A stretch of DNA of 64,000 nt. Origin: Actinocorallia populi. Lineage in GTDB: Bacteria; Actinomycetota; Actinomycetes; Streptosporangiales; Streptosporangiaceae. The translations under genes and the position numbers were made by a program. Positions 4,004 through 50,185 of the stretch are shown here, piece by piece (the stretch's first letter is position 1; each line of letters begins with the position of its first letter). The notes below the pieces were generated by a model, which had not been told where the DNA came from, did no database searches, and worked only from the letters and a program-made list of their open reading frames with translations. Location: NCBI RefSeq assembly GCF_002995495.1, contig NZ_PVZV01000005.1:434001-498000 (forward strand), given 5' to 3'.

Positions 4004-6520
4004 TCATCTTTCCAACACCGCCCGCAGGTCTTCTTCCAGGGCCGGGATGTTCCTCGGCAGCATCTCGAGGACGGCATTCAGCGAGGCGTCACTGGTTTCG
4101 ATGCCGGAGGCCTCGATGGGAAATCCGGGGAGGTGCTTCGTGAGCACGCCTCGTACGGCTGCCCAGATCTCGGGCTCATCAGCCACCTTCGCCAAAGGAG
4201 TGTCCATCGTGAGCAAGGGGCGTTCGCCATAGTCTGCCGGTACCGGATAGCGCCATGTGTGTGTGCCGGACTCCACCTCCTCGGCGGAGTCTTCGGAGTG
4301 AAGCGGTAGTACGACCATCGCGGTTGCGCCTGCCGGGACCGTGACATCGAGGGTCAGCTCGCCGTTCGCGATCTGCCAACCTACTTCCACGCGTCCTCTG
4401 ACCGTGTCGTGCACCGTGCGAGCAGAAGTGAGTCCGCCACCGGGTCGGGGGGCGATCTGGAGTCGTTTCCAGCCCGGCGAGGTGCGTACCAGACCGCCGA
4501 CCACGCGGTGCAGCCAGGCGGCGACGGCGCCCAAGGCGTAATGGTTCAGGGAGGTCATCCCCGTCGAGTTCAGTGTGCCGTCGGGACGGATCGAATCCCA
4601 GCGCTCCCAGATCGTCGTCGCGCCCATCGTGACCGGGTAGAGGAAGGACGGGCACTCTTTCTCCATCAGCAGCCGATATGCCTCTTTGAGATGGCCGGTG
4701 CTGCTGAGTGCCTCGGTCACCAGCGGGGTTCCCGCGAAACCGGTGGAGATGCGGTAGTCCTCCTTCTTCACGATCTCCGCGAGGCGGTCGCCGGCCTTCT
4801 GCCGCTGGGGCTCTTCGAGGATGCCGAACATGATGGCCAGGGCGTAGGCCGTCGCGGTCTCGTTCACGACGCGACCGGAGTCGGTGACGTACTCGCGCCG
4901 GAACGCGTTGCGGACCCGCTCGTGCAGGGCCCGAAAGTGTTCTTCGTCCTGGTCTATGCCGAGGATCGCGGAGGTCAGAGCCATCTCGCGCGTGGTCTTG
5001 ACGAAGTACGCGGAGGCGACGAGGAAACGATCGGTCTTTCCCCCGGCCGCGTTGTCGGCGGGCGCGTCAGGGTCCAGCCAGTCGCCGAACTGGAAACCCG
5101 AGCTCCACAGCCCGTCCTCGTCGAGCAGGCCCTCCACCTGCCGCACGAAAGCGGTCATCGACTCGTAGCTGCCGCGCAGGATGGCCGTGTCGCCGTACTC
5201 CTGGTAGAGCTCCCAGGGCAGGCTGACGGCGACGTCACTCCAGAGCGCCGTGGGTGAGGAGGGGGTGGACTGCACGTCCGGCACGGTCCAGGGGACGTCG
5301 CCCGTCTCCCGCTGCTCGGCTGCGAGGTCCTGCAGCCAGGAGCCCAGCACGCCCCGCACGTCGTACAGGAAGGTCGCGGTCGTCGAGAACGCGTTCAGAT
5401 CGCCCGTCCAGCCCATGCGCTCGTCGCGCTGAGGGCAGTCGGTGGGCAGGCCGACGAAGTTGCCCCGCATCGACCACAACGTGTTCTCATGGAGCCGGTT
5501 GATCAGCGGGTCGGATGTCTCGAACCAGCCGGTGCGTGTCATGTCGCTGTGCACGACGACGGCACGAAGGGCCTCTGCCGTCGGGTCTCCGGGCCAGCCT
5601 TCGATCTCGACGTAGCGGAAGCCGTGGAAGGTGAACTGCGGTTCCCACACCTCGACGCCGTCTCCGCGGAGCGTGTACCGGTCGGTCGCTTCCGCCGTGC
5701 GGTTCGTCTCCCGCTCGAGCTCGCCGGAGGGGGTGAGCACCTCGGCATGCCGAAGGGTCACCGTGGTGCCCGCCTCACCGGCCACGCTGATCCGCACCCA
5801 GCCGGAGATGTTCTGGCCGAAATCGACGATCGTCGTCCCCGCGTCGGTTCTGCGCAGCAGGGTCGGAGCGAGCTCTTCGACGCGCCGGATCGGGGGCGCG
5901 GCCGTCTCGGTGAGGCTCGAAAGGGGCCAGTCGAAACGCCGGGCCGCCGCCCAATCGCCGTCGTCGAACCCGGCTCGGGTCCAGCCGCTCGGCTCGAGCC
6001 GGGCGTCGTAGGTCTCACCGGCGTAGATTCCGTTCGCCCGGACCCCGCCCGTGCCGATCCGGAACCGCTCGTCGGTCGCGACGATCTCGGTCCGGTCGGG
6101 GTATTCGAGCTCCAGCTGTGCGAACAGAGCCGGACGATCCGCGTAGTTATGGCGGTTGTTGTCCCAGGTCAGTGCGCCGACCGCCCAGCCTTCGCCGACG
6201 ATGGCGCCGAAGGCGTTGGCGCCCGGGGAGATCAGAGCGGTCACGTCGTGGGTGCTGACCGCGAGCCGGTGCCGGTACGACGTCCACCCGGGCGCGAGAA
6301 CCTCGTCTCCGACACGGGATCCGTTGATGTAGGGGACCACGATTCCGAGTCCCGTCACCGTCAACCGTGCGCGAAGAGGGAGGTCTTCGACGTTGAATTC
6401 TCGTCGAAAATAGACGGCTGGATCCCCATCGGCAGCGGCGCTCGTGCCGCTGACAAAAGATGCCTGCCATTTGAGGGATGCGCGGTCGTGCTCGGTCGTG
6501 CTTGTGACGGGGGTCGTCAT
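4004..6520 (-). CDS. Alpha-L-rhamnosidase, GH78
   Basis: The protein hydrolyses terminal alpha-L-rhamnosides. It has N-terminal beta-sandwich domains, then an (alpha/alpha)6 barrel with the family motif DCPQRDERMGWTGD (general acid expected at Glu367) and ATTIWERWDSI (base expected at Glu639). A beta-sandwich of roughly 80 residues follows. The last ~70 residues, starting TMDTPLAKVADEPEIW, are an extra helical tail resembling the tails of the GH3 enzymes in this window. ATG 6520 is chosen over ATG 6535 because AAGGAG sits 5 bases before it. No signal peptide, so a cytoplasmic enzyme. It lies 119 bases downstream of a GPH importer on the same strand, suggesting import of rhamnosylated glycosides followed by cleavage. 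Confidence 0.92.
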   Translation of the reverse strand: MTTPVTSTTEHDRASLKWQASFVSGTSAAADGDPAVYFRREFNVEDLPLRARLTVTGLGIVVPYINGSRVGDEVLAPGWTSYRHRLAVSTHDVTALISPGANAFGAIVGEGWAVGALTWDNNRHNYADRPALFAQLELEYPDRTEIVATDERFRIGTGGVRANGIYAGETYDARLEPSGWTRAGFDDGDWAAARRFDWPLSSLTETAAPPIRRVEELAPTLLRRTDAGTTIVDFGQNISGWVRISVAGEAGTTVTLRHAEVLTPSGELERETNRTAEATDRYTLRGDGVEVWEPQFTFHGFRYVEIEGWPGDPTAEALRAVVVHSDMTRTGWFETSDPLINRLHENTLWSMRGNFVGLPTDCPQRDERMGWTGDLNAFSTTATFLYDVRGVLGSWLQDLAAEQRETGDVPWTVPDVQSTPSSPTALWSDVAVSLPWELYQEYGDTAILRGSYESMTAFVRQVEGLLDEDGLWSSGFQFGDWLDPDAPADNAAGGKTDRFLVASAYFVKTTREMALTSAILGIDQDEEHFRALHERVRNAFRREYVTDSGRVVNETATAYALAIMFGILEEPQRQKAGDRLAEIVKKEDYRISTGFAGTPLVTEALSSTGHLKEAYRLLMEKECPSFLYPVTMGATTIWERWDSIRPDGTLNSTGMTSLNHYALGAVAAWLHRVVGGLVRTSPGWKRLQIAPRPGGGLTSARTVHDTVRGRVEVGWQIANGELTLDVTVPAGATAMVVLPLHSEDSAEEVESGTHTWRYPVPADYGERPLLTMDTPLAKVADEPEIWAAVRGVLTKHLPGFPIEASGIETSDASLNAVLEMLPRNIPALEEDLRAVLER

Positions 6521-9793: not shown

Positions 9794-12469
9794 ATGACCG
9801 GGTTCGAGGAGGGCAGGCTCACTGCCGCCGCTGCAGAGGCCGGACTTTATGCGGCATACAGGGACGTTTCGCTTCCCGTGGGAGAGCGCGTCGTCGATCT
9901 GATCGAGCGGATGACGTTGGAGGAGAAGGCCGCTCAGATCGCCTCACCGTTCGGGTCGGCCGTCGATGTGCACGCTCCTCCGCCGACGGGATGGGGCAGC
10001 GCCACCGCCGCGCTGTCCGTTCTCGGCACGACTCCGCGCGAAGCGGCGGAGAAGGCGAACGAGCTGCAGCGCAAGCACGTCGAGGAGACCCGCCTGGGCA
10101 TCCCCGTCCTGCTGATCGAAGAGGCGCTGCTCGGCCTGAAGGTGCGGGATGCGACGACCTTTCCCGACGCGATCGCGCAGGCCGCGACCTGGGATCCCGA
10201 CTCGATCGAGGAGATGGGCGCGGTCATCGGCGCCCAGATGGCGGCGCTCGGCGTGCGGCAGGCGCTGTCGCCGCTCGCGGACGTCGCACGCGATCCCCGA
10301 TGGGGGAGGGTCGGCGAGACCTACGGCGAGGAGCCGTATCTCGTCGGGGCCATGGCGACGGCGTTCGTGCGCGGGATACAGGAAGCCGTGCCGGACGTTC
10401 CACTGATCGCGACGTTGAAGCACTTCGTCGCATACGGGGCGAGCGAGGGCGGACGGAACACGGAGCCGGCCCAGCTCGGTGAGCGTGCGCTCCGGGAGAC
10501 CTACGGCGTGCCGTTCGAGATGGCGATCCGCGAAGGCGGCGCCCAGGGCGTGATGCCGTCGTACAACAGCATCGACGGGGTGCCGGTGACCGGATCCCGA
10601 GAGCTTCTGACCGAACTGCTGCGTGAGGAGTACGGGTTCAACGGCCTGGTCATCTCCGACCTTGCGGCCGTGGCGCAACTGCACACCAAGCACGGCGTCA
10701 CCACCGATGTCGTCGGCGCCTACGCCCAGGCCCTGCGGGCGGGGGTGGACCTCGACCTGGACAACCGGGTGTCGTCGGACCGCGTGATCGAGGCCGTCCG
10801 TACCGGCGCGCTGCCGGAGCCGGACCTGGACCGCGCCGTCGCGAGCGTCCTGCGCGCCAAGTTCCGGCTCGGCCTGTTCGAGCGACCGTACGTGGATCTG
10901 GAGAAGGTGCCCGAGAGCCTCGACTCCGGCGAGTCCAGGGCGCTCGCCAGGTCGATCGCGGAGAAGTCGGTCGTGCTCCTGCAGAACGAGCCGGTCGACG
11001 GGACGCCGCTGCTGCCGCTGGCGTCCGATCCGGGGACCATCGCCGTCATCGGGCCCAACGCGGATCGTCCGATGGGTCAGCTCGGGCATTACAGCTACCA
11101 GGTGCTCGACAGCATGACGAAGCGGTTCGCGCTGGCCGCGGATCCGCAGGCGCGAGCGGCGGACGCCGAGGGGCTGGCCGGCAGAAGCGGACCGGACGAC
11201 GCGGAGCTGCTGGTGGAATCGGTGCCGGTCGTCACGTTCCTCCAGGGCATCCGCGATCGTGCCGGAGCGGATGCGACCGTGCTCTACGAGCAGGGGTGCC
11301 CCGTCGCAAGGGAGGACAGGTCGGGCTTCGCCGCGGCCGTGCGCGCCGCGGCGAAGGCGGATGTGGCGATCGTCGTCGTCGGAGACCAGGCGGGCATCAA
11401 CACGCGGGGCACCGTCGGGGAGGGGCTGGACAGCACCGACTGCGCGCTGCCCGGGGTTCAGCGGGAGCTCGTCGAGGCCGTAGCGGGCACCGGCACCCCT
11501 ACCGTCGTGGTCCTGAGCCACGCCCGTCCCTTCGTCCTCGGTTGGATGGCCGACACCGTTCCGGCGATCGTGAGCTCCTGGTTCGGCGGTGAGGAAGCGG
11601 GCAACGCGGTCGCGAACGTGCTGTTCGGCGATGTGAATCCGGCGGGACGCCTCCCGATCGCGATGCTCGAGTCGGCAGGCGCCGCACCCGTCCCCTACTG
11701 GCGCTCGCTCCAGTCCCCGGCGTACACCGATGGTTCGATCAAGGCGGTCTTCCCGTTCGGCCACGGCCTGAGCTACACCGCCTTCGAGTACCGCGATCTG
11801 CGGATCCCGTCGGGCAGGGTGCGCACGGACGGTGTCATCCGCGTCGAGTTCACGGTCGCGAACGTCGGATCGCGAGCCGGGGACGAGGTGGTGCAGGTCT
11901 ACGGACGCGACGTCCACGGGCGGACGGCGCGCCCCGCGCGGAAGCTGGTCGCGTTCCGGCGGCTGACACTCGCTCCCGGTGAGGAGGAGCGCGTCGCGGT
12001 CGACATCCCGGCCGACCTGTTCGCCCTCTGGGACCCGCGGGAGGGGTGGGTCGTCGAGCCCGGTGCCGTGAAGCTCTTCATCGGCCCGTCGTCGGCGGTC
12101 ACCCCCCTCCGCGGCGAGGTGAACCTCATCGGGCGGGAGCACCGTCCGGGTGCGCACCGGGCGCTGAGCAGCACCGTGACGGCCGGCGTCGAGGTGTCGC
12201 CGGCCCCATCGGCGGCCGAAGAGAGTGAAGACGGGGACGAGGAACCGGTGCCGGTGAGGCCGCTGACCGCCGAAAGCACGGTCGGGGACTGGTTCGCGCA
12301 TCCGGTCGGGGCCCGAGTCCTGCGCTCCGTGCTCGGCGGCGTGGACGAGGAGACGCTCGCCCCCGCCTTCGGCCTCACGCTCGAGCAGATGGTGATGTAC
12401 AGCAATGGCGCCCTGCCGGCGTCCCTGCCCGGAGAACTCCTGGAGAGAGCGGCCCGTGAATCCGACTGA
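9794..12469 (+). CDS. GH3 beta-glycosidase with C-terminal tail module
   Basis: This 891-residue GH3 enzyme has the (beta/alpha)8 domain with KHFVAYG and GLVISDLAAV (nucleophile Asp289). The alpha/beta sandwich domain follows, then an FnIII-like domain (PFGHGLSYTAFEY, then VANVGSRAGDEVVQVY). The SDL rather than SDW nucleophile context and overall arrangement resemble beta-xylosidase/beta-glucosidase branches; the exact sugar is unresolved. After an acidic linker (EESEDGDEE) comes a ~65-residue tail starting TAESTVGDWFAHPVG, similar to tails of the other GH3s here. No signal peptide. It is divergent from lacI and overlaps the next gene by 14 bases, so the two are co-translated. Confidence 0.92.
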   Translation: MTGFEEGRLTAAAAEAGLYAAYRDVSLPVGERVVDLIERMTLEEKAAQIASPFGSAVDVHAPPPTGWGSATAALSVLGTTPREAAEKANELQRKHVEETRLGIPVLLIEEALLGLKVRDATTFPDAIAQAATWDPDSIEEMGAVIGAQMAALGVRQALSPLADVARDPRWGRVGETYGEEPYLVGAMATAFVRGIQEAVPDVPLIATLKHFVAYGASEGGRNTEPAQLGERALRETYGVPFEMAIREGGAQGVMPSYNSIDGVPVTGSRELLTELLREEYGFNGLVISDLAAVAQLHTKHGVTTDVVGAYAQALRAGVDLDLDNRVSSDRVIEAVRTGALPEPDLDRAVASVLRAKFRLGLFERPYVDLEKVPESLDSGESRALARSIAEKSVVLLQNEPVDGTPLLPLASDPGTIAVIGPNADRPMGQLGHYSYQVLDSMTKRFALAADPQARAADAEGLAGRSGPDDAELLVESVPVVTFLQGIRDRAGADATVLYEQGCPVAREDRSGFAAAVRAAAKADVAIVVVGDQAGINTRGTVGEGLDSTDCALPGVQRELVEAVAGTGTPTVVVLSHARPFVLGWMADTVPAIVSSWFGGEEAGNAVANVLFGDVNPAGRLPIAMLESAGAAPVPYWRSLQSPAYTDGSIKAVFPFGHGLSYTAFEYRDLRIPSGRVRTDGVIRVEFTVANVGSRAGDEVVQVYGRDVHGRTARPARKLVAFRRLTLAPGEEERVAVDIPADLFALWDPREGWVVEPGAVKLFIGPSSAVTPLRGEVNLIGREHRPGAHRALSSTVTAGVEVSPAPSAAEESEDGDEEPVPVRPLTAESTVGDWFAHPVGARVLRSVLGGVDEETLAPAFGLTLEQMVMYSNGALPASLPGELLERAARESD

Positions 12470-18214: not shown

Positions 18215-18223
18215 GGCTCATGA

Positions 18224-21948: not shown

Positions 21949-22698
21949 GTGGCGAACATCTGCTTTGACTTCGCGGGGAGCCGCGTTCTCGTCACAGGCG
22001 GTTCGAACGGCATAGGCCTGGGCATCGCGAGGGCTTTCCGCGAAGCGGGCGCCGAAGTCGTCATCACCGGTACGCGCGCGAACGCGAAGGACTACGAGCA
22101 CGACCTCGAGGGGTTCGACTACCGGCCTCTCTCGCTGACCGACGCCGCCGGGATCACCCGGCTCGCGTCCTCCCTGGACCGGCTCGACATCCTGGTGAAC
22201 AACGCGGGACAGAACCGCGCCGGCTTCCCCGGGGAATGGGATCCGGACGTCTTCGCGGAGACCGTGGAGATCAACCTGACCGGGGCCTTCAGGCTCGCCG
22301 CCGCATGCAAGCCCCTGCTCGCCGCCAGTCCGCTGGAGGGCGGCGCCAGCGTCGTCAACATGGGTTCGATGACGAGTTACTTCGGCCAGGCCGTGGTTCC
22401 CGCCTACGGCGCGGCCAAAGGCGGGATCGTCCAGCTGACCAAGGGGCTGGCCGTGGGCTGGGCCTCCGACGGAATCAGGGTCAACGCGGTGGCGGCGGGC
22501 GTCATCGAGACGAACATGACCCGGCCCATGCTCGGAGTGGAGTCGCAGGTGGAGCGCGTGCTCGCCCGCACGCCGATGGGCCGCTGCGGCGAGCCCGGGG
22601 ACGTCGCTCCGGTCGTGCTGTTCCTCGCCGGCCCGGCCGCCCGGTTCGTGACCGGCCAGACGCTGCCCGTCGACGGCGGCTACTCGATTCAGGGATGA
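21949..22698 (+). CDS. SDR-family oxidoreductase
   Basis: This 249-residue classical SDR has NAD(P)-binding TGGSNGIG near residue 17, NNAG at about 84, the catalytic Ser region NMGSMTS and Tyr/Lys in AYGAAKGG. The C-terminal VTGQTLPVDGGY is typical. It should oxidise or reduce a hydroxyl/ketone group. The start is GTG after GGAGGAGAA. Its TGA overlaps the ATG of the sulfotransferase (ATGA), so the two are translationally coupled. A plausible role is to set the hydroxyl group that the sulfotransferase then modifies. Confidence 0.92.
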   Translation: MANICFDFAGSRVLVTGGSNGIGLGIARAFREAGAEVVITGTRANAKDYEHDLEGFDYRPLSLTDAAGITRLASSLDRLDILVNNAGQNRAGFPGEWDPDVFAETVEINLTGAFRLAAACKPLLAASPLEGGASVVNMGSMTSYFGQAVVPAYGAAKGGIVQLTKGLAVGWASDGIRVNAVAAGVIETNMTRPMLGVESQVERVLARTPMGRCGEPGDVAPVVLFLAGPAARFVTGQTLPVDGGYSIQG

Positions 22699-23954
22699 CC
22701 ATGGCCGACGACATCCGCATCGACGACCTCGCCGCGCCCCGCCTGACGCCGGCGCAGCAGGAGGCGCTCGCCTACGGCGAATCGACCCCCGTCGACCTGA
22801 GCGTCGACGCCGTCCTGGAGACGGCGACGGCTCGCGCCGGACTCGACGACTTCGGCTCCGACGACTTCCGCGAACGCCTGGGCCTGTGGTTGGCCGAGAT
22901 GGAGGAGGACGAGGACCGCACCGGCCTCGGCCGGCTGTCCATGTTCGGCGAATGCGTGCGCCACGCCGTCAACCGGCTGCGCATCCACGACCTGCTCCAG
23001 CGGCATCCCGAGATCCACGACGTGCCGATCGAGCGGCCCGTCATCGTGGTCGGCCTGCCCAGGTCCGGGACCACCCACCTGGTCAACATGATCGCCGCCG
23101 ACGGGCGTTTCCGCTCGATGCCGTTGTGGGAGAGCCGGGAGCCGGTGCCGGACCCCCGCGAGAGACCCGGACCCGGCGGTGTGGACCCCCGCTGGGAGCG
23201 ATGCGACCAGTCGTGGAACGCGGCGCGGCGCACGCTGCCGCACCTGGCGGCCATGCACCCGCTGCTGCCCGATCACGTGCACGAGGAGTTGGAGCTCGAG
23301 CTGCCCGACTTCTCCAGCTACTACATCGAGTGGGTCGCCCGCTGCCCCGGCTGGCGGGACTACTACCTCACCCACGACCAGACCCCGCACTACGCGTACA
23401 TGCGGACCGTGCTGCAGATCCTGCAGTGGCGACGCCCGGGTCGGCGCTGGGTGCTGAAGTCGCCGCAGCATCTCGAGCAGCTCGGGCCGCTGCTGAAGAC
23501 GTTCCCCGACGCGACCGTCGTGGTCACCCACCGGGACCCCGTCTCGGTGGTCCAGTCGACCGCCACGATGATGACCTACAGCGCCCGGCTGCACTACCGG
23601 CACACCCGTCCCGAGTGGTACGTCGAGTACTGGACGGATCGTATCCGCCGTCTGCTCGACAGCGCGGTGCGCGACAGATCCCTGCTGCCGGCGGACCGCA
23701 CCGTCGACGTGCACTTCCACGAGTTCATGGCCGACGAAATGGGCACGGTCGAGCGGATCTACGACGCCGCCGGGCTGGAGCTCACGCCCGAAGCCCGTTC
23801 TGAGATCGTCGCGTACCACGACTCCCACCGGAGGGGGCGTGACGGCCAGGTCGTCTATGACCTCCGCCGCGACTTCGGCGTCACCCCGGACGAGGTGAGG
23901 GCGCCGTTCGGCTTCTACCTCGACCGGTTCGACGTTCGGGCGGAGGTCCGATGA
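22695..23954 (+). CDS. PAPS-dependent sulfotransferase
   Basis: The 419-residue protein has the sulfotransferase 5'-phosphosulfate loop [14 protein letters not shown] near residue 117 and the 3'-phosphate loop [12 protein letters not shown] near residue 278. A helical region with [10 protein letters not shown] lies between them. This is the bacterial Sulfotransfer_3-like family seen in lipid and natural-product clusters. It would move sulfate from PAPS to a hydroxyl group. It overlaps the SDR by 4 bases and is followed by cysD and cysN/C, which make PAPS. The acceptor is unknown. The C-terminus ends in an ATGA that opens a 23-codon frame bridging to cysD. Confidence 0.9.
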
Positions 23955-24022
23955 CGAGCCTGCTCATCCGCCGCGCGGAACCGGTGTCCGCCGTCCTCGA
24001 CCTCTCGCTGGAGCGACCGTGA
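23951..24022 (+). CDS. Possible 23-residue linking peptide between sulfotransferase and cysD
   Basis: ATG 23951 overlaps the sulfotransferase stop (ATGA). The frame runs 23 codons ([18 protein letters not shown] and so on) and ends with a TGA that overlaps the GTG start of cysD (GTGA, 24019-24022). The double overlap would let ribosomes pass from one cistron to the next without dissociating. No homology is recognised. It may be only a coupling leader. Confidence 0.4.
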
Positions 24023-24921
24023 AGCCCCTTACCCACCTGCAGCGGCTCGAAGCCGAGAGCATCCACATCATGCGCGAAGCGGTCGCCGAGAGCGAGCGTC
24101 CCGTCATGCTGTACTCGATCGGCAAGGACAGCTCCGTCATGCTGCGGCTGGCGATGAAGGCGTTCTACCCGTCGAAGCCGCCGTTTCCGCTGCTGCACGT
24201 GGACACGACGTGGAAGTTCCGTGAGATGTACGCCTTCCGCGACCGGACGGCCGCAGAGCTCGGTCTCGACCTGCTCGTCCACCAGAATCCGGAGTGCCTG
24301 CGGCTCGGTATCAATCCCTTCGAGCACGGTTCGGCCACGCACACCGACATGTGGAAGACCGACGGGCTCAAGCAGGCGCTCGATCAGCACGGCTTCGATC
24401 TCGCGTTCGGCGGGGCCCGCCGGGACGAGGAGAAGTCGCGCGCCAAGGAGCGGGTGTTCTCCATCCGTTCGCCGCAGCACCGGTGGGATCCGAAGCGGCA
24501 GCGGCCCGAACTCTGGCGGACCTACAACACGCGGACGAACCCCGGAGAGACGGTGCGCGTGTTCCCGCTGTCGAACTGGACCGAACTGGACGTGTGGCAG
24601 TACATCCACCTCGAGCAGATTCCGATCGTCCCGCTGTACTTCGCCGCGCCGCGGCCGGTCGTGCAGCGGAACGGGATGCTCGTCATGGTCGACGACGACC
24701 GGATGCCGCTCGAACCGGGCGAGGTCCCGGAGAAGCGGAGCGTCCGGTTCCGCACCCTGGGCTGCTACCCCCTCACCGGAGCCGTCGAGTCCACCGCGGA
24801 CACGCTCCTCGACATCATCCGGGAGATGCTGCTGGCCACCACCTCCGAGCGGCAGGGCCGGGCGATCGACCACGACGCCGACGGGTCCATGGAGAAGAAG
24901 AAGCAGGAGGGATACTTCTGA
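24019..24921 (+). CDS. cysD: Sulfate adenylyltransferase small subunit
   Basis: The 300-residue CysD forms adenosine 5'-phosphosulfate from ATP and sulfate together with CysN. The PP-loop reads [11 protein letters not shown] near residue 34. Family blocks [31 protein letters not shown] and the C-terminal [12 protein letters not shown] are intact. The GTG start fits the family N-terminus [14 protein letters not shown]. Its stop overlaps the cysN/C start by one base (TGATG). No cysH, sulfite reductase or sulfate permease is nearby, so the role here is probably PAPS supply for the sulfotransferase rather than cysteine synthesis. Confidence 0.96.
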
Positions 24922-26825
24922 TGGCCCACACCGACAGGCGTATCGCCTCCGACATCGAGACCTACCTCGCCGCGCAGCAGGAGAAGTCGCTGCTGCGGTT
25001 CATCACCTGCGGCAGCGTCGACGACGGCAAGAGCACCCTCATCGGACGGTTCCTCTACGAGTCCAAGCTGGTCTTCGAGGACCATCTCGCCGCACTGGAG
25101 AACGATTCCAGGAAGGAGGGTACGCAGGGCGGCGACCTCGACTTCGCGCTGCTCGTCGACGGCCTGGCGGCCGAACGCGAGCAGGGGATCACGATCGACG
25201 TCGCATACCGCTACTTCTCCACCGAGAAACGCAAGTTCGTCGTCGCAGACACGCCGGGGCACGAGCAGTACACCCGCAACATGGTCACGGGCGCCTCGAC
25301 CGCGGACCTCGCGGTGATCCTGGTCGACGCCCGGAGGGGGGTGCTCACCCAGACTCGGCGCCACAGCCACCTCGTCGCGCTGCTGGGCATCCGCCACGTC
25401 GTGCTGGCGGTCAACAAGCTGGATCTCGTCGACTACTCGCACGAGGTCTTCGACCGCATCGACACGGAGTACCGGGCCTTCGCCGCCGAACTGGGCCTGT
25501 CCGACATCGTCAGCATCCCGCTCTCGGCCCTGCGGGGCGACAACATCACGCAGCCCAGCCCCAACACGCCGTGGTACTCCGGACCGACCCTCATCGAGCA
25601 CCTGGAGACCGTGGAGGTCGACGATGACCGGGCAGGGTTGCCCTTCCGGATGACGGTGCAGTGGGTGAACCGGCCCCATCTCGACTTCCGGGGCTTCTCC
25701 GGTCTCGTCGTCGGCGGTGTCGTTCGGCCGGGTGACCGGGTGCGCGTCGCGCCCTCCGGGGTCGAGAGCACCGTGGCGCGGATCGTCACCTACGACGGCG
25801 ACCTTCCGGAAGCGGTCGCCGGCCAGTCCGTCACGCTCGTCCTCACCGACGAGGTCGACGTCAGCCGCGGCGACGTCATCGCCGCGGCCGACGACCCCCC
25901 GGGGGTCGCCGACCAGTTCGAGGCGCATGTGGTGTGGATGGGCGAGGACGAGCTGCTACCGGGGCGCCGCTATCTCGCCAAGATCGGCGCGACGACCGTC
26001 GGGGTCACCGTCGACCACCCCAAGTACCAGGTGAACGTCAACACCCTGGAGCACGTCGCCGCGAAGACGCTGGGCCTGAACCAGATCGGTGTCTGCGCGG
26101 TGCACTTCGACCGCCCGACGCCGTTCGACGCCTACCTCGGCAACCGGGACCTCGGCGGCTTCGTCATCATCGACCGGCTGACCAATGCCACGGTGGGCAT
26201 CGGGCTGCTGCGCTTCGTGCTCCGGCGCGCCCAGAACGTCCATTGGCAGGCGCTCGAGGTCGACAAGGCCGCCCGCGCCGCTCTGAAGCACCAGCGGCCC
26301 GCGGTGGTGTGGTTCACCGGGCTCTCCGGCGCGGGGAAGTCGACCATCGCGAACGCGGTGGAGCGCAGGCTGCACGCGCTGGGGCACCACACCTACCTGC
26401 TCGACGGCGACAACCTCCGGCACGGCCTGAACCGCGATCTGGGCTTCACCCCGGCCGACCGCGTGGAGAACGTCCGGCGCAGCACCGAGGTCGCCGCACT
26501 CCTGGCGGATTCCGGCCTCATCACCCTGGTCTGCCTGATCTCTCCCTACCGGGCGGAACGCCGCATGGCCAGGGACCGGATCCCGGACGGCGAGTTCATA
26601 GAGGTCTTCGTGGACACTCCGCTCGAGGTCGCCGAGGCCCGGGACCCCAAGGGCCTGTACGCCAAGGCCCGCCGGGGCGAGCTGCCGAACTTCACCGGCG
26701 TCGACGCGCCCTACGAGCCTCCGGAGGAGCCCGAGATCCACATCCGTACCTCCGAGACCACCCTGGAGGAGGCAGCCGAGAAGATCGTCGCCCACCTCCT
26801 GGACCGGTGCGGCGAGAGGCCCTGA
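24921..26825 (+). CDS. cysNC: Bifunctional sulfate adenylyltransferase large subunit / APS kinase
   Basis: The 634-residue fusion has an N-terminal CysN GTPase (GSVDDGKST at about 31, DTPGHEQY at about 108, NKLD at about 169) with elongation-factor-like beta-barrels. A CysC APS kinase follows (GLSGAGKST at about 467, then [17 protein letters not shown]). CysN regulates and powers APS formation by CysD; CysC phosphorylates APS to PAPS. Both catalytic halves look intact. Directly behind cysD and the sulfotransferase, it completes a self-contained path from sulfate to PAPS to sulfonated product. Confidence 0.96.
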
Positions 26826-27916: not shown

Positions 27917-27928
27917 GCCGCCGTGCCG

Positions 27929-28100: not shown

Positions 28101-29597
28101 ATGACGAACGACCATGCCGAGACCACGTCGTCCGGTTCCCGGGTTGCTGCCGCACCGGTGCCGCTGTCGGAGGTGGAGCGGTTCGATCACGAGACCGACG
28201 TCCTGGTCGTCGGGTTCGGGTGCGCCGGTGCGGCGGCCGCCTACGAGGCCGCGAGCGCCGGGGCCGACGTGCTGGTGTTGGAGCGGTTCTCGGGGCCGGG
28301 CGGGTCTGCCGCCCAGTCCGGCGGGGAGGTCTACCTGGGCGGCGGCACCCGGGTGCAGGAGGCGTGCGGGTTCGACGACACCCCGGAGGACATGTACGCC
28401 TATCTGCACGCCGCGCTCGGTCCTCATGCGGATGAGGAGAAGCTGCGGTTGTACTGCGAGGGCAGCGTCGAGCACTTCGAGTGGTTCCGTGCCCGCGGGG
28501 TGCCCTTCCAGGAGTCGCTGTACGGGGAGCCTGGCTGGATGGCGCCGACGAAGGACGGGTTGATGTGGCTGGGTGAGAACGCCTGGCCGTACAACACCCT
28601 CGCCCGTCCCGTCCCGCGAGGCCACCGCCCGCCCGTGGAGGGCTTCGCGGGCGTTCTGCTCATGGAGAAGCTGGCCGCCGCTGCGGTCGAGGCCGGGGCG
28701 CAGGCCCACACCGACACCCGGGCGTCCGCGCTCGTGGTCGACGCCTCAGGGCGTGTGGCGGGCGTGGTGGCCCGGCGGTTCGGCGAGGAGGTGCGCTACC
28801 GGGCCCGCAAGGGGGTCGTCCTCACCACCGGAGGCTTCGTCGACGACGAGGAGATGCTGGCTGATCATGCTCCGGTGCTGCTCGGGCACGGCAAGGTCAG
28901 CGACGGCGGCGACGACGGCAGCGGGATCCGCATGGCCTGCGCGTTGGGCGCGGCGACCCGGCGCATGGGTTCGGTGGAGGCGGCGCTGGTGGTGATGCCG
29001 GAGGCGGCCTGCCGGGGCATGCTGGTCAACGCGCTCGGGCAGCGCTTCATCAACGAGGACGTCTACCCCGGCCTGTTCAGCCACGCCGCGCTGCACCAGC
29101 CCGCGCCCTGGTGGGTGATCCTCGACGAGGAGGGCTTCGCGGCCTATTCCGAGCGGAACCCGGGGGCGATGCCGCCGGACCACGTCGCCGAGAGCCTGGC
29201 CGAGCTCGAGGAGGAGTTGGGCATCCCCGCAGGCGCGCTGGAGAGCACGGTGGCGATGTACAACCGGTACGCGGCCCTTGGCGAGGATCCTCTGTTCCAC
29301 AAGAACCCCAAGTGGCTGCGCGAGCTGAAGGCGCCCTTCGCCGCCGTCGATCCGCGTGTCCTGGCCAGGTTGGCGGAGAACCGCCGCGAGGCCACCGGGA
29401 TCTCCGGTTTCACCCTCGGCGGCCTGCACACCACGGTGGACGGGGAGGTGCTGCACGCGACCCGCCGCCCGATCCCGGGCCTGTACGCAGCGGGTCGGGC
29501 TTCGTCGGGCATCCACGGCGAGGGCTACGTCAGTGGTACCTCGATCGGGGACGGGACGTTCTTCGGCCGCCGGGCCGGACGCGCCTCCGCCCATTAG
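28101..29597 (+). CDS. FAD-dependent oxidoreductase, KSTD / fumarate-reductase-like
   Basis: The 498-residue flavoprotein has an N-terminal dinucleotide fold (VLVVGFGCAGAAAAYEA, then LVLERFSGPGGSAAQSGG). The fumarate-reductase/3-ketosteroid-dehydrogenase style C-terminal FAD contact is IPGLYAAGRASSGIHGEGYV followed by SGTSIGDGTFFGRRAG. It also has the GVVLTTGGFVDDEEM segment. Members desaturate or reduce C-C bonds next to carbonyls, as in steroid ring oxidation. AAGGAGAAA lies 7 bases before the ATG. It stands between two strong hairpins, so it is probably its own transcript. The substrate is unknown; steroid-like is suggested by family only. Confidence 0.85.
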   Translation: MTNDHAETTSSGSRVAAAPVPLSEVERFDHETDVLVVGFGCAGAAAAYEAASAGADVLVLERFSGPGGSAAQSGGEVYLGGGTRVQEACGFDDTPEDMYAYLHAALGPHADEEKLRLYCEGSVEHFEWFRARGVPFQESLYGEPGWMAPTKDGLMWLGENAWPYNTLARPVPRGHRPPVEGFAGVLLMEKLAAAAVEAGAQAHTDTRASALVVDASGRVAGVVARRFGEEVRYRARKGVVLTTGGFVDDEEMLADHAPVLLGHGKVSDGGDDGSGIRMACALGAATRRMGSVEAALVVMPEAACRGMLVNALGQRFINEDVYPGLFSHAALHQPAPWWVILDEEGFAAYSERNPGAMPPDHVAESLAELEEELGIPAGALESTVAMYNRYAALGEDPLFHKNPKWLRELKAPFAAVDPRVLARLAENRREATGISGFTLGGLHTTVDGEVLHATRRPIPGLYAAGRASSGIHGEGYVSGTSIGDGTFFGRRAGRASAH

Positions 29598-33769: not shown

Positions 33770-36055
33770 ATGACCGACCACCCGTTCGAGGAATCCGCCG
33801 GCGAGCAGAACGCGCATGCTTCCTCCTCCTTCTCCGAAGTCCCCGCCGAGCGGAAGGCCGCGCTGTTGTCCGGCCGCACGTTCTGGGAGACCGAGTCGCT
33901 CGAGGAAGCCGGCATCCGACCGGTGGTGATGGCGGACGGCCCGTACGGGCTGCGGCACCAGTCCGGGCGGCACGACAACCTCGCGCTGTTCGAAAGCGAC
34001 CCGGCGACATGCTTCCCTCCCGGGGTCGCGATCGGATCCAGTTGGGATCCCGGTACGGCGGCGCGCCTGGGAAGCGCGCTGGGGAAGGAGGCCGCCGCCC
34101 GGCGGATCGATGTGGTGCTAGGCCCCGGGGTGAACATCAAAAGGTCACCGCTGTGCGGCCGGAACTTCGAGTACTACTCCGAGGACCCGCACATCTCGGG
34201 GGTGCTGGGAGCGGCGTTCGTCCGGAGCCTGCAGGCGGAGGGGCCCGGCGCGTCGGTGAAGCACTTCGCCGTGAACAACCAGGAGACCAACCGGCAGACG
34301 ATCAGCGCGGACGTCGACGAGCGCACTCTCCGCGAGATCTACCTTCCCGCTTTCGAGCAGGTCGTCACGCAGGCGCGGCCGGCGACGGTGATGTCCTCCT
34401 ACAACAAGATCAACGGGGTCTACGCGTCCGAGAACCGGTGGCTGCTCACCGAGCTGCTCCGCGGCGAGTGGGGCTTCGACGGGCTCGTCGTCTCCGACTG
34501 GAGCGCCGTCACCGACCGGGTCGCGGCCCTGAAGGCCGGGCTCGACCTCGAGATGCCTGGCGGGGACATGGGGCATGACGCCGACGTGATCGAGGCGCTC
34601 CGGGCGGGTGCCGTCACGGAGGAGGACATCGACGCCGCCGTCGCCCGGCTGCGCACGCTGGCGGCACGCGAGCTGCCCGCCGGGGGCGACGTCGACTACG
34701 ACGCGCATCACGAGCTCGCACGCGAGCTCGCGGCGGAGTGCGCGGTACTGCTGCGCAACGAACACGGCGTCCTCCCGATCCGAGGCGGAGCGCACGTCGC
34801 GGTGATCGGGGCCTTCGCGGAGCATCCGCGCTACCAGGGCGGCGGAAGCGCGCACGTCAACGCCATCCGCGTCGACCAGCCCCTTGAGGAGATCCGCGCG
34901 ATCGCGGATGAGATCGGCGCCATGGTCGCCTACGCCCAAGGATTCGCCCTGGACGGACCCGAAAACGAGGAACTTCGGGAGGAAGCGATCCAGACGGCGC
35001 TCGACGCCGACGTCGCGGTGGTCTTCGCCGGCCTCACCGAGGCGCGCGAGTCGGAGGGAATCGACCGGGAGACGATCGGCCTCCCCGCCGATCAGGTGAA
35101 GCTCATCCGCGCCGTCGCCGCGGCCGCGCGCCGTACCGTCGTCGTCCTCTCCAACGGCGGAGTCGTCTCGCTCGAAGGGTGGCACGACGAGGTCGACGCG
35201 ATCCTCGAAGGGTTCCTGCTCGGGCAGGGCGGCGGACACGCGATCGCCGAGATCCTCTTCGGACGCGTGAACCCGTCGGGGCGCCTCGCCGAGACGATCC
35301 CCCTGCGGCTGGAGGACCACCCGAGCTGGCTGAACTTCCCCGGTGAGCAGGGCCATGTCCGCTACGGCGAGGGAGTGCTGGTCGGATACCGCTACTTCAC
35401 GACCGCCGACGCACCGGTCCGGTACCCGTTCGGGCACGGCCTGTCGTACACGGCGTTCGAGACCGGCGACCTCGTCGTGGAGCAGACCGGGCCGGACTCG
35501 GCGGTCGCGCAGGTCCGGGTGACCAATACCGGTGACCGTGCGGGCAAGCACGTCGTCCAGGTGTACGTGTCCACCGGCGCCGGACCGGTGCGCCGCCCCC
35601 TCCGGGAACTCCGCGGGTTCGCGAAGGTCGCGCTGCAGCCGGGCGAGACCGCGGCCGTGGAGATCGAACTCCCGCGCCGGGCGTTCGCGTACTGGAACGT
35701 CGCCGCACAGGACTGGGTGGTCGCCGGCGGAGAGCACCGCGTCCAGGTGTGCGCTGACGCGGCGACGGTGCTGGCCGAAGCGGCGCTGATCCTCGAGGGC
35801 GATCGCGTCGCGATCGAGCTGACCCTGGACACGCCGGTCGGCGCCTGGTTCGAACACCCCGACGTCGGCGCGCGCACGAAGCGGACCCTCGGACTGGAGG
35901 GAGCCCCGATCACCGAGGAGCAGCTCGCCATGGTCGCGTCCATGACGATGCGCCAGTTCATCGGCATCTCCGGGCTCGACATCTCCACTGACGCGCTCGA
36001 AGAGCTGATGGACGTCAGCCGCGGCGGGCGGCCGGCCCCATCGCCCGCCGGATGA
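33770..36055 (+). CDS. GH3 beta-glucosidase-type enzyme with C-terminal tail (island B)
   Basis: This 761-residue GH3 enzyme has GPGVNIKRSPLCGRNFEYYS, KHFAVNNQET and GLVVSDWSAV (nucleophile Asp243). The alpha/beta sandwich domain follows, then the FnIII-like domain with PFGHGLSYTAFE. This is the typical bacterial beta-glucosidase layout. The last ~75 residues, from TLDTPVGAWFEHPDVG, form a helical tail absent from minimal GH3 enzymes and similar to the tails at 9794 and 46201. No signal peptide. The 46201 gene is its closest relative in the window. It is coexpressed with the importer, GH2 and GH1. Confidence 0.93.
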   Translation: MTDHPFEESAGEQNAHASSSFSEVPAERKAALLSGRTFWETESLEEAGIRPVVMADGPYGLRHQSGRHDNLALFESDPATCFPPGVAIGSSWDPGTAARLGSALGKEAAARRIDVVLGPGVNIKRSPLCGRNFEYYSEDPHISGVLGAAFVRSLQAEGPGASVKHFAVNNQETNRQTISADVDERTLREIYLPAFEQVVTQARPATVMSSYNKINGVYASENRWLLTELLRGEWGFDGLVVSDWSAVTDRVAALKAGLDLEMPGGDMGHDADVIEALRAGAVTEEDIDAAVARLRTLAARELPAGGDVDYDAHHELARELAAECAVLLRNEHGVLPIRGGAHVAVIGAFAEHPRYQGGGSAHVNAIRVDQPLEEIRAIADEIGAMVAYAQGFALDGPENEELREEAIQTALDADVAVVFAGLTEARESEGIDRETIGLPADQVKLIRAVAAAARRTVVVLSNGGVVSLEGWHDEVDAILEGFLLGQGGGHAIAEILFGRVNPSGRLAETIPLRLEDHPSWLNFPGEQGHVRYGEGVLVGYRYFTTADAPVRYPFGHGLSYTAFETGDLVVEQTGPDSAVAQVRVTNTGDRAGKHVVQVYVSTGAGPVRRPLRELRGFAKVALQPGETAAVEIELPRRAFAYWNVAAQDWVVAGGEHRVQVCADAATVLAEAALILEGDRVAIELTLDTPVGAWFEHPDVGARTKRTLGLEGAPITEEQLAMVASMTMRQFIGISGLDISTDALEELMDVSRGGRPAPSPAG

Positions 36056-46200: not shown

Positions 46201-48414
46201 ATGTCAGACGAGCTGTCGCTGGAGCAGAAGGCGTCCCTGCTGTCCGGGCGGGACTTCTGGTCCACCGAGCCGATCGAGGAGGCGGGCGTCCCCTCGATCG
46301 TCCTCACCGACGGTCCGCACGGGATCCGCCGCCAGACCGGGGACGCCGACCACCTGGGCATCAACGAGAGCCTTCCGGCCACCTGCTTTCCGCCCGCCGT
46401 GGCGGTGGGCTCCAGCTGGGACGCCGAGATCGCCGCCCGGGTGGGCGCGGCCGTCGGCAGGGAGGCGCGCGCGTTCGGCGTCGGCGTCGTGCTGGGGCCG
46501 GGGGTGAACATCAAGCGGTCCCCGCTGTGCGGGCGCAACTTCGAGTACTACTCCGAGGACCCGCTCCTGTCCGGCGTCCTGGCGTCGGCGCACGTGCGGG
46601 CGCTGCAGGCCGAGGGGCCGGGCGCGTCGGTCAAGCACTTCGCGGCCAACAACCAGGAGACCGACCGGATGCGGGTCAGCGCCGACGTGGACGAGCGCAC
46701 CCTGCGCGAGATCTACCTTCCCGCCTTCGAACGCGTCGTCACCGAGGCGCTGCCGGCCACGGTGATGTCCTCCTACAACAGGATCAACGGCGTGTACGCC
46801 TCGCAGAACCGGTGGCTGCTGACCGAGGTGCTGCGCGAGCAGTGGGGCTTCGACGGGGCCGTGGTCTCGGACTGGGGCGGCGTCTACGACCGGGTCGCGG
46901 CTCTGGCGGCGGGGCTCGACCTGCAGATGCCCGGCAATGGAGGCGTCGACGACGCCGAGGTCGTGCGGGCGGTCCGCGACGGGGAACTGGACGAGGCCGT
47001 CGTCGACCAGAGCGTTCGCAGGATGCGAGTGCTGGCCGAGCGCGTCTCCCCGGCGACGGGCGAATTCGACGCCGAGGCCCATCACGCCGAGGCCAGGGAG
47101 CTGGCCGCCGCCTGCGCGGTGCTGCTGAAGAACGATCGCGCCACTCTGCCCATCACCGAGCGGACGCGGCGCATCGCCGTCATCGGCGAGTTCGCGGCAG
47201 AACCGCGTTATCAGGGCGGTGGCAGCTCCCGCATCAACGCCACCCGCGTCGATGCCGCGCTGCAGGAAATCCAGGTGCTCGCTGGAAGCCGCGGCCAGAC
47301 CGTGGCCTACGCGCGGGGATACGCCGCCGACGGCTCCGGTGATCCGCTGGAGTTGCGCGAGCAGGCGGTGCGGGCCGCGGCGGAGGCTGACATCGCCGTC
47401 GTGTTCGCCGGGGTGGCCGAGGAGTCCGAGGGAGTCGACCGCGAACATCTCGACCTGCCCGCCGACCAGGTGGAGCTCATCCGCGCCGTCGCCGCCGCCG
47501 CTCCGCGCACCGTCGTCGTGCTGTCCAACGGTGGAGTGGTGTCCCTGGAGGGCTGGCATGACGACGTCGACGCGATCCTGGAGGGCTGGCTGCTGGGCCA
47601 GGCCGGGGGAGGCGCCCTCGCCGACCTCCTGTTCGGCGTGGCCAACCCCTCCGGCCGACTGGCCGAGACGATCCCGCTCCGGCTGGAAGACACCCCGGCC
47701 TACCTCAACTTCCCCGGCGAGCAGGGGCATGCGCGGTACGGCGAAGGCGTCATGGTCGGCTACCGCTACTACGAGACCGTGGGACGCGCGGTGCGTTACC
47801 CCTTCGGCCACGGCCTGTCCTACACCGTGTTCACCACCGGTGACCTGAAAGTCACCGTCACCGGTGACGACACCGCCACCGCGGCGGTCACCGTGACCAA
47901 CACCGGTGACCGGGCGGGCGGGCACGTCGTGCAGGTCTACGTCGCCACGACCGCCGGTCCGGTGCGCCGCCCCGCCCGCGAACTGCGCGCCTTCACCAAG
48001 GTCTTCCTCCAGCCGGGAGAGTCCCGGCGCGTCGAACTGGCCCTGGACCGGCGGGCGTTCGCGTACTACGACGTCGAACTCGGCCGCTGGACGGTCGCCG
48101 CGGGGGAGTACGCCGTCCAGATCGGGCAGGACGCCTCCACCGTCGTGGCCGAGCAGACCATCACCCTCACCGGTGACGTCATCGTCAAGGCACTGTCCCT
48201 GGACACTCCGGTCGGTGACTGGTTCGCCCACCCGGTCGTCGGGCCGGAGCTCATGCGCACCCTCATGGCGGGCCTGAGCGAGGAGCAGGCCCGCCAGGCC
48301 GAGGAGCAGGCCGAGATGCTGCAGATGGTCGCGTCCCTGCCGATGCGGCAGTTCCTCGGGTTCGTCAGCATCCCCGAAGAAGCCCTGAACAGGATGATCG
48401 CGATGGGGGCGTGA
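46201..48414 (+). CDS. GH3 beta-glucosidase-type enzyme with C-terminal tail (island C)
   Basis: This 737-residue GH3 enzyme is closely related to that at 33770. It has GPGVNIKRSPLCGRNFEYYS, KHFAANNQETDR and VVSDWGGV (nucleophile Asp224), then the sandwich domain and FnIII-like domain with PFGHGLSYTVF. ATG 46201 follows AGGAAAGG; the reading frame remains open far upstream through the importer gene in another frame, which is not coding. The last ~75 residues from SLDTPVGDWFAHPVVG form the shared tail module. It lacks a signal peptide and sits 38 bases after the importer. Confidence 0.93.
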   Translation: MSDELSLEQKASLLSGRDFWSTEPIEEAGVPSIVLTDGPHGIRRQTGDADHLGINESLPATCFPPAVAVGSSWDAEIAARVGAAVGREARAFGVGVVLGPGVNIKRSPLCGRNFEYYSEDPLLSGVLASAHVRALQAEGPGASVKHFAANNQETDRMRVSADVDERTLREIYLPAFERVVTEALPATVMSSYNRINGVYASQNRWLLTEVLREQWGFDGAVVSDWGGVYDRVAALAAGLDLQMPGNGGVDDAEVVRAVRDGELDEAVVDQSVRRMRVLAERVSPATGEFDAEAHHAEARELAAACAVLLKNDRATLPITERTRRIAVIGEFAAEPRYQGGGSSRINATRVDAALQEIQVLAGSRGQTVAYARGYAADGSGDPLELREQAVRAAAEADIAVVFAGVAEESEGVDREHLDLPADQVELIRAVAAAAPRTVVVLSNGGVVSLEGWHDDVDAILEGWLLGQAGGGALADLLFGVANPSGRLAETIPLRLEDTPAYLNFPGEQGHARYGEGVMVGYRYYETVGRAVRYPFGHGLSYTVFTTGDLKVTVTGDDTATAAVTVTNTGDRAGGHVVQVYVATTAGPVRRPARELRAFTKVFLQPGESRRVELALDRRAFAYYDVELGRWTVAAGEYAVQIGQDASTVVAEQTITLTGDVIVKALSLDTPVGDWFAHPVVGPELMRTLMAGLSEEQARQAEEQAEMLQMVASLPMRQFLGFVSIPEEALNRMIAMGA

Positions 48415-48460: not shown

Positions 48461-50185
48461 ATGAAAGCGATCATGTTGATGTTCGACAGCCTGAACCGGC
48501 ACATGCTCCCGCCGTACGGGGACACCCTGGTGCAGGCTCCGAACTTCGCCCGGCTGGCAGAGCGGTCGGTCACGTTCGACGACTTCTACGGCGGGTCGAT
48601 GCCGTGCATGCCGGCCCGGCGGGAGCTGCACACGGGCCGTCACAACTTCCTGCACCGCAGCTGGGGGCCGCTGGAGCCGTTCGACGACTCCATGCCCGAA
48701 CTGCTGAAGAACGCCGGTGTGCACACCCATCTGGTCTCCGACCACCACCACTACTGGGAGGACGGCGGCGCCACCTACCACGGCCGCTACAGCACCTGGG
48801 AGTTCTTCCGCGGACAGGAGGACGACCCCTGGAAGGGCGTGGTGGGCGTGGCCGGGCACCGGCAGAACGACGTCAACCGCCGCTACATGCCCACCGAGGC
48901 CGAGCACTCCCAGACCCTGACCGTGGACGCGGGTCTGCACTTCCTGGAGACCAACCTGGAGGCCGACCGCTGGTTCCTGCAGCTCGAGCTGTTCGATCCG
49001 CACGAGCCGTTCTTCTCCCACCGGTTCTACAAGGACCTGTACCCGCACGACTACGAGGGGCCCGACTTCGACTGGCCGCCGTATCAGAAGGTGGTCGAGC
49101 CCCAGGCGCAGGTCGAGCACGCCCGGTACGAGTACGCGGCGCTGGTGTCGATGTGCGACCGCTCGCTGGGCCGGGTCCTGGACTTCATGGACGAGCACGA
49201 CCTGTGGCGCGACACGATGCTGATCGTCAACACCGACCACGGGTTCCTGCTGGGCGAGCACGGCTGGTGGGCCAAGACCGTCCAGCCGTGGTTCAACGAG
49301 CTGGTGCACCTGCCGATGTTCCTGTGGGACCCCCGCACGGGCGAGCGCGGGACCCGCCGCAACGACCTGGCCCGCACCATCGACATCGCACCCACCCTCC
49401 TGCGCTACTTCGGGCTCGAACCGGCCCCCGACATGCAGGGACGCGACCTGAACTCCGACGCCCCCGCCCCGCGAGGCGCGCTGTTCGGCATCCACGGCGG
49501 CCACGTCAACGTCACCGACGGGCGCCACGTCTACATGCGGGCCTCCCGCGAGGCGACCAACGGGCCTCTGGAGGAGTACACCCTCATGCCCACCCACATG
49601 AAGAACCGCTTCGGAGTGCACGAGCTCAAGGACTGGACGCCCGCACCCCCGTTCTCCTTCACCAAGGGCCTGCAGACCATGCGCATGCCGTCAGGGGGAT
49701 CCTGGGTGAACCCGTGGCAGCACGGCACCCTGCTCTTCGACCTCGTCACCGACCCCGCCCAGGAGCACCCGGTCGTCGACGACGAGCTCGAGCTGCGCAT
49801 GCTCGGCCTGCTCAGGGAGCTCATGCGCGAGGCGGACGCGCCGTCCAGCCAGTACGAGCGGCTCGGCATCCCCGAGGACGGGGAGCCGACCGAAGCCCAC
49901 CTCCTGGTGCGCGAGCAGCGCGACCACGCCGCCCGAACGGCCGAACCGCTGCCCCGGCTGGGCGAGATGGAGGCGCAGGACCTGCTCTCCCTTCCCCTGG
50001 CCGAACTGCTCCAGGTCACCGGCGCCCGCGACTGCGTCGCCCGGCACGCGCCCGGCCTCGTGCAGACCGAGCTGCTGTCCGTCCCCCTGCCGCTCAGCCT
50101 CATCGACCTGGCCCGTTACTCGGGCGTGCACGCCGCGGCCCTGCGCGCGATCGGGAAGGACCTGGCCGCGCTCGCCGAGACCTGA
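48461..50185 (+). CDS. Formylglycine-dependent sulfatase (type I)
   Basis: The 574-residue alkaline-phosphatase-fold enzyme hydrolyses sulfate esters. The maturation motif is CMPAR (Cys49 to Arg53) followed by RELHTGR. It is a C-x-P-A-R variant of the commoner C-x-P-S-R and should still be converted to formylglycine. Metal ligands are visible: Asp9 in MLMFDS and the DH pair in NTDHGFLLGEHG. No signal peptide, so a cytoplasmic desulfating step. The final ~70 residues (SLPLAELLQVTGARDCV onward) are outside the sulfatase fold and weakly resemble the GH tails. The FGE gene follows within 35 bases. Confidence 0.92.
   Translation: MKAIMLMFDSLNRHMLPPYGDTLVQAPNFARLAERSVTFDDFYGGSMPCMPARRELHTGRHNFLHRSWGPLEPFDDSMPELLKNAGVHTHLVSDHHHYWEDGGATYHGRYSTWEFFRGQEDDPWKGVVGVAGHRQNDVNRRYMPTEAEHSQTLTVDAGLHFLETNLEADRWFLQLELFDPHEPFFSHRFYKDLYPHDYEGPDFDWPPYQKVVEPQAQVEHARYEYAALVSMCDRSLGRVLDFMDEHDLWRDTMLIVNTDHGFLLGEHGWWAKTVQPWFNELVHLPMFLWDPRTGERGTRRNDLARTIDIAPTLLRYFGLEPAPDMQGRDLNSDAPAPRGALFGIHGGHVNVTDGRHVYMRASREATNGPLEEYTLMPTHMKNRFGVHELKDWTPAPPFSFTKGLQTMRMPSGGSWVNPWQHGTLLFDLVTDPAQEHPVVDDELELRMLGLLRELMREADAPSSQYERLGIPEDGEPTEAHLLVREQRDHAARTAEPLPRLGEMEAQDLLSLPLAELLQVTGARDCVARHAPGLVQTELLSVPLPLSLIDLARYSGVHAAALRAIGKDLAALAET

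Follow-up and report, generated by a model that had tools for sequence, protein, structure and literature searches.

The sequence analyzed here (the window) is a 64-kb piece, with a GC content of 70%, of the 8.25-Mb genome of Actinocorallia populi (contig NZ_PVZV01000005.1, positions 434,001 to 498,000), and the element in question is a C-terminal tail carried by several of its glycoside-processing enzymes. Three glycoside hydrolase family 3 (GH3) proteins, a GH78 alpha-L-rhamnosidase and, in diverged form, a sulfatase of the window end in one domain of ~65 to 80 residues. The four glycosidase tails were found where an earlier, sequence-only reading of this DNA had placed them, namely, at 4010-4222 in GH78 (4004-6535, minus strand), 12257-12460 in the first GH3 (9794-12469, plus strand), 35816-36031 in the second GH3 (33770-36055, plus strand), and 48187-48405 in the third GH3 (46201-48414, plus strand, start verified). 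All four enzymes were assigned by Pfam, and their last Pfam domains end 87, 124, 99, and 93 residues before the C terminus, respectively. An Fn3-like domain and linker (47758-48186, plus strand) precede the tail of the third GH3 and were modeled jointly with it.

Searched in the own genome with profile A9, which holds the tails of GH78 and of the first and third GH3, these three tails gave E values of 3e-11, 4e-17, and 7e-13, respectively, and the tail of the second GH3, absent from A9, gave 7e-8. The second GH3 can be aligned to the GH3 beta-glucosidase structure 7MS2 right through the tail. The alignment of the tails displays the shared entry motif noticed earlier, followed by a second block. 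The sulfatase (48461-50185, plus strand, Pfam) carries a diverged tail at 49994-50167, which is weak by itself (E of 1.1 in the own genome with A9 and 0.02 to 0.03 in a small set). Across the linker and tail, it aligns with short gaps to the ends of four sulfatases; three of these are Pfam verified, and one of the three is an own-genome paralogue (L315) that is 61% identical to the window sulfatase over 425 residues. The sulfatase tail, suspected in the sequence-only reading of being weakly related, is thus probably real but diverged.

Across the own genome, A9 returned eight clear tails (E ≤ 7e-8), comprising six known earlier, one more GH3, and one sulfatase. With weaker cases counted, the tail occurs on 6 of the 12 GH3 genes (one at 8e-6), and of the six GH3 proteins without it, two have N termini of the secretion type as judged by eye. 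Among the six GH78 genes, the tail was clear in two, reached an E value of 1.4e-4 in one, and was absent from one; in the remaining two, a tail was indicated solely by weak scores or by the similarity of the final residues. The end of a GH78 protein encoded 2.6 kb past the window end is only tail-like.

Homology of the tails and controls

Profile A2, seeded with six own-genome tails (four GH3 and two GH78) and hence not yielding a random sample, matched 49 of the 296 genomes searched from the window's class (E ≤ 0.01). The matches were C termini of GH3 and GH78 and, unexpectedly, N termini of a short-chain dehydrogenase/reductase (SDR) of ~340 residues. When GH3 tails and SDR N termini were compared through profiles built separately, hhalign gave a probability of 99.6 and an E value of 6e-25, and the best HMMER E value was 2e-20 with the GH3 profile. 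The direct comparison of GH3 with GH78 tails of the window's class was marginal (hhalign probability of 21 to 26, E of 0.0007 to 0.001; best HMMER E of 0.19, and E ≤ 1 for two of the 14 GH78 tails), which comes close to the lack of significant similarity that the sequence-only reading had named as evidence against itself. The link is made by GH78 tails of Bacillota, which match the GH78 tails of the window's class at 1e-11 and the GH3 tails of that class at 4e-9, so that the two kinds of tail in the window's class are joined through this bridge; they also match Bacillota SDR tails at 2e-17.

Tails grouped by carrier and source, all gathered with tail profiles and therefore not a random sample, exceeded the best of 90 reversed-alignment controls (E of 0.0017, probability of 15.5) in 40 of 45 group pairs, 35 of them at E below 1e-4; the GH43 group consisted of a single sequence. 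The five failing pairs were GH78 of the window's class with SDR of that class, GH140-like, and GH2, and SDR of that class with GH140-like and GH2. All groups were connected via intermediates. No reversed open reading frame (ORF) among 18,866 reached E ≤ 0.003 with any of four tail profiles, compared with 350, 339, 344, and 22 real ORFs. A chance motif is rejected by the reversed ORFs and reversed alignments; one chance match (L193, 2.5e-4) was dropped before the ORF pairs described below were listed, and L062, L069, L043, and L075 were removed from the first seed set.

No model covering the tail domain was found in the Pfam and NCBIfam sets scanned. Six tails run alone against Pfam returned a single row at E ≤ 10 (E of 0.076), and the sole recurrent library match was a full-length GH3 model of NCBIfam, hit by 3 of 25 tails (best E of 0.0076), which may include such an end. 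The best stray matches, one tail of 20 each, were DUF1786 (5.6e-4) and DUF1858 (PF08984, 0.0014). DUF1858 resembles the tail in length and motif order, and membership in it was rejected on the score of that single tail (19.1 bits, against a Pfam gathering threshold of 32.2) and on its absence from a second set of 25. No named domain of such kind was found in the open PMC literature with a few search terms, which is weak evidence of absence.

Carriers, distribution, and gene order

The domain is larger in spread than the sequence-only reading supposed. Tails occur on nine Pfam-verified families (GH3, GH78, GH2, GH43, GH13, GH140-like, sulfatase, BD-FAE esterase, and SDR), so that by these assignments the tail is carried outside the window's class and on families beyond those first noticed, including GH2 and GH43, which are tailed elsewhere. 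The claim that the tail spread as a separate module over unrelated catalytic domains is supported by these carriers and their linked profiles, and so does the predicted attachment to many glycosidase families and sulfatases. The tail is mostly C-terminal on GH3, GH78, GH2, GH43, sulfatase, and BD-FAE esterase and N-terminal on SDR, GH140-like, and GH13; a second GH43 carrier has it at the N terminus (Pfam). The GH140-like carrier is a DUF5060/Apiosidase/DUF5605 protein in Pfam. In three GH13 alpha-amylase-family proteins (L331, L333, and L335), an N-terminal tail-like domain matched at 1.5e-7, 3.8e-7, and 0.003. Among the Pfam-tested carriers, one is plainly neither a glycoside-processing enzyme nor an SDR: a STAS and APH-type phosphotransferase protein with a C-terminal tail (L329:3761-5287), from a genome in the order of a Roseburia metagenome-assembled genome (MAG).

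By BLAST against a reference set, with overlapping loci counted repeatedly, carriers numbered 209 GH3, 52 GH78, 44 SDR, 12 GH3+SDR, 12 GH2, 9 esterase, 6 GH140-like, 1 GH43, and 30 unclassified; these counts precede the Pfam assignment of sulfatases, GH13, and the second GH43 from the unclassified group. A C-tailed 846-residue frame (L042:545-3082) lies between a GH3 and an SDR, both tailed; it had no Pfam match at 0.001, and its best PDB match was faint (kojibiose phosphorylase, E of 0.08). Stand-alone ORFs of 74 to 77 residues consist of the tail only (L226:7092-7322, L325:1937-2158, and L326:5716-5937), one of which follows a tail-bearing GH2 at a distance of 160 bp; L228 (69 residues) and L327 (91 residues, contig end) are less clear cases. 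One GH3 (L114) carries two tails in tandem.

Tails were detected in 109 of the 197 genomes searched from the Paenibacillus nanensis family (A6, E ≤ 0.01), 76 of 200 genomes of the window's order (A9, E ≤ 0.001), 41 of 196 genomes of the order of the Roseburia MAG (A9, E ≤ 0.001), and 9 of 249 genomes drawn from the phylum of Evansella caseinilytica (A5, E ≤ 0.001); profiles and cutoffs differ between these samples, and the rates are not comparable. Loci around relatives of Clostridium thermocellum BglB contributed GH3 tails of Bacillota and of MAGs labeled Thermotogota and Bathyarchaeota, and GH78 tails of Bacillota. Among plasmid records, a consensus SDR tail constructed for this search matched 15, several of them with a GH3 annotation. 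Overall, a domain that no model in the scanned libraries covers is shared by nine Pfam-verified enzyme families, almost all of which act in glycoside catabolism, in genomes ranging from high-GC ones to those of gut Clostridia.

Within the fetched loci, 39 successive pairs of tail-bearing ORFs were listed, with 20 distinct ones having frames ≤200 bp apart. Gaps in this list reach 21 kb, three of the pairs lie in the window, and two places enter it twice. In the loci chosen, which are not a random sample, the N-tailed SDR gene had a C-tailed ORF upstream on the same strand in nine of nine distinct pairs, ≤120 bp away in six, and the upstream partner was GH3, GH78, esterase, or unassigned. The arrangement GH3-tail-tail-SDR also occurs as one frame of 1,109 to 1,120 residues in three genomes (Pfam on one, BLAST on the others). 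In the P. nanensis family, tails occur together on GH78, esterase, and a GH3-SDR fusion at one locus (L224), on esterase and GH3-SDR fusion at two (L225 and L243), and on GH78, esterase, and SDR at two more (L230 and L242).

In a tree of 131 tails over 76 columns, with large groups cut to 20 to 25 and read without branch support values, all 20 SDR tails of the window's class lay nearest GH3 tails of that class, and all 12 Bacillota SDR tails lay nearest a Bacillota GH43 tail. The SDR parts compared (four against two) were 32 to 39% identical. Since the tails split between GH3-like and GH43-like despite related SDR parts, SDRs appear to have acquired them on two or more occasions.

Structure of the tail and location of its carriers

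In the AlphaFold model of the third window GH3, six helices lie within model residues 152 to 217, after the last Fn3 strand (128 to 137), with pLDDT values of 85 to 96 over the block. The tail is thus predicted to form an all-helical unit of its own that follows the Fn3-like domain, and the view of it as the last strands of that domain (PF14310), the ordinary GH3 end, which the sequence-only reading had named as a possible refutation, is rejected because the helices follow the last strand in the model. For the tandem of L114, two helical units were modeled (pTM of 0.54) without reliable mutual placement, the second unit having no aligned rows. Foldseek matched the models to 8J9F, 9LQL, and 7MS2 over the Fn3 strands and tail; for the tandem, 111 alignment columns of the 200-residue model were covered, and the next match had an E value of 1.1.

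A profile search of PDB chains detected the tail in 7MS2 (C. thermocellum BglB), 8J9F, and 5WAB (Bifidobacterium adolescentis), so that these GH3 beta-glucosidases, together with the second PSTG1 structure 9LQL (8J9F is the other), end by sequence in the same C-terminal domain. The tail is largely ordered in 7MS2 (745 to 750 of 755 residues resolved) and 8J9F (744 to 749 of 780) and largely disordered in 5WAB (654 to 701 of 751). In the available excerpts of works citing 5WAB or 7MS2 (PMC6327262 and PMC11071339), the tail is not discussed.

Profile A9 also matched beta-glucuronidase (GUS) chains, namely, 7KGZ at residues 653 to 731 (4e-8), 6MVG (0.003), and, more weakly, 8GES, 8GET, and 6MVH (685-776) at 0.012 to 0.014; since a repetitive designed helix bundle also reached 2e-4 here, 7KGZ is the one match that is firm by itself. 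The tail domain apparently also ends the FMN-binding gut GUS enzymes of family GH2, as judged from these matches to the terminal ~75 residues. The excerpts of PMC8748916 describe the C-terminal domain of this one GUS class as mobile, unresolved, and ~150 residues long, and neither they nor those of PMC9377255 draw a link to GH3, GH78, SDR, or sulfatases. The tail also provides a family-wide handle on this mobile end domain of drug-reactivating gut enzymes, whose structure these excerpts call unresolved. In two enzyme classes, pieces of the domain have already been crystallized or deleted by others. The apparent novelty is that a single module is carried by nine enzyme families, most of which have unrelated folds, and that its genes are ordered as docking would suggest.

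The cytoplasmic location attributed to the enzymes is supported for nearly all proteins that could be evaluated. Among 140 complete, distinct C-tailed proteins, 139 lacked an export signal, and the hydrophobic N-terminal stretch of the one flagged lies before the first Met of the segment; excluded from the test were 143 truncated or unaligned proteins, 53 N-tailed, 24 without a reference, 3 duplicates, and 3 edge ORFs. The same cutoff picked out 23 of 32 control ORFs of the lipobox type.

Possible function of the tail and alternatives

Tentatively, and at somewhat less than even weight, the tail is read as a domain for association (docking) among enzymes that break down glycosides in the cytosol, the most likely of the explanations considered. 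It would be a mobile all-alpha accessory domain of ~65 to 80 residues on intracellular enzymes that dismantle imported glycosides, binding a second copy of itself or a shared partner. Sequential enzymes acting on one substrate (rhamnosidase, esterase, glucosidase, and sulfatase, then the SDR dehydrogenase) could be held together in this manner; alternatively, one enzyme would oligomerize. We infer the binding, and the gain from it, from the homology across carriers, the upstream position of the C-tailed genes, the fused frames, the stand-alone ORFs, the partial clustering, and the lack of export signals, which together favor an association domain; the tandem tails and the apparent gain of tails by SDRs at least two times were also counted for it. 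A further point is the tetramer estimated for PSTG by gel filtration in the excerpt of PMC3622683; 8J9F, which the tail profile matches by sequence, presumably represents this enzyme. Docking of the tailed enzymes to each other, one of the two ideas of the sequence-only reading, is plausible.

The docking domains of modular polyketide synthases are small and helical and sit at the C terminus of the upstream gene product and the N terminus of the downstream one. The tails resemble them in having the C-terminal copy upstream and the N-terminal copy downstream in the same cluster, in all nine distinct SDR pairs and the three fused frames; they differ in that the carriers are separate catabolic enzymes. 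Cellulosomal dockerins are mobile modules found on many glycosidase families, extracellular and calcium binding. The tail is likewise mobile across glycosidase families, whereas its carriers lack export signals where tested. Neither the polyketide synthase docking-domain family in Pfam nor, at E ≤ 10, dockerin gave a row for the tails (20 plus 25).

Several observations weigh against association. As the sequence-only reading had remarked, the GH2 and GH43 of the window have no tail, and the profile search of the own genome returned nothing at E ≤ 10 for its GH1 region; the fourth GH3 of the window (61650-63998, crossing the window end) is also without a tail in its full copy (L364), and tail-less enzymes occur within the same clusters as tailed ones. 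Only a single match was found in 54 of the 109 positive genomes of the P. nanensis family and 54 of the 76 of the window's order. A second tail-bearing ORF was present in only 5 of 80 GH3 neighborhoods of up to 20 kb, fetched with a tail-holding query and not a random sample (L114, L121, L126, L128, and L135), and most of the 44 SDR matches had no tail-bearing neighbor in the short flanks fetched. The tandem model gave no firm tail-tail interface, and the published deletions of the GUS C-terminal domain, which reduce activity toward bulky substrates, fit an active-site gate equally well.

Such a gate, in which the tail is a flexible lid next to the active site, recruiting and positioning the bulky, often aromatic aglycones of imported glycosides, is an unlikely but serious alternative. 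It would suit the A9 matches to GUS chain ends (6MVH at 0.014 being the faintest) and two published results: a stop after residue 644 lowered the mycophenolate-glucuronide activity of Roseburia hominis 2 GUS eightfold, for which a gate is proposed in the excerpt of PMC9377255, and the C-terminal domain of R. hominis 3 GUS is called critical for triclosan-glucuronide processing in that of PMC8748916. The GUS deletion, however, took away more than the tail, and it is hard to imagine how one lid geometry could serve TIM-barrel, (alpha/alpha)6, sulfatase, and Rossmann (SDR) enzymes alike, whether attached N- or C-terminally; a gate also leaves the stand-alone ORFs, tandem copies, and C-tail-then-N-tail order unexplained. 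The genomes with one match, about half or more of the positives in two samples, would make sense if the tail were a tag binding one common cellular protein, cofactor, or site other than the importer and thereby localizing or regulating the enzymes, and the occurrence of one family at N termini, at C termini, and alone fits this too. This explanation is held to be rather improbable, as no candidate partner was noticed in the neighborhoods viewed by eye and no ligand-binding family matched convincingly among the Pfam rows of 20 plus 25 tails.

The PSTG tetramer and the ordered tails of 7MS2 and 8J9F are compatible with a structural end cap that stabilizes the fold or homo-oligomer of each enzyme and does not link different enzymes. 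Such a cap is quite improbable given the disorder in 5WAB, the tail-less GH3 paralogues of the own genome, and the movement of the tail between unrelated folds. Docking to the membrane importer, the other idea of the sequence-only reading, is highly improbable and was rejected: GPH/MFS-like transporters occur in the window, L240, and L243 (the latter two by eye from N termini), so that the expected GPH neighbors adjoin some loci only, but ABC-type importer genes are found instead at L224, L225, L226, and L237 (also by eye from N termini), leaving no common docking surface, and no transporter is among the tail carriers identified.

Were the association domain confirmed in its widest form, it would represent a cytosolic counterpart of the cellulosome in several phyla, in which an unnamed helical docking domain, C-terminal on glycosidases, esterases, and sulfatases and N-terminal on dehydrogenases, brings the enzymes that process one imported glycoside into a complex. 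The gut GUS enzymes that reactivate drugs would, through their C-terminal domain, be part of the same system; this wide reading is conceivable but doubtful. If the tail assembles enzymes, it would amount to an intracellular metabolon code readable from genomes, predicting enzymes with a shared substrate.

Amid the tail-bearing enzymes of the window, region 22236-29597 encodes a sulfotransferase (PF13469), a CysN-type GTPase fused to APS kinase, and a FAD_binding_2 oxidoreductase, constituting a sulfate activation and transfer block in the same locus as the sulfatase.

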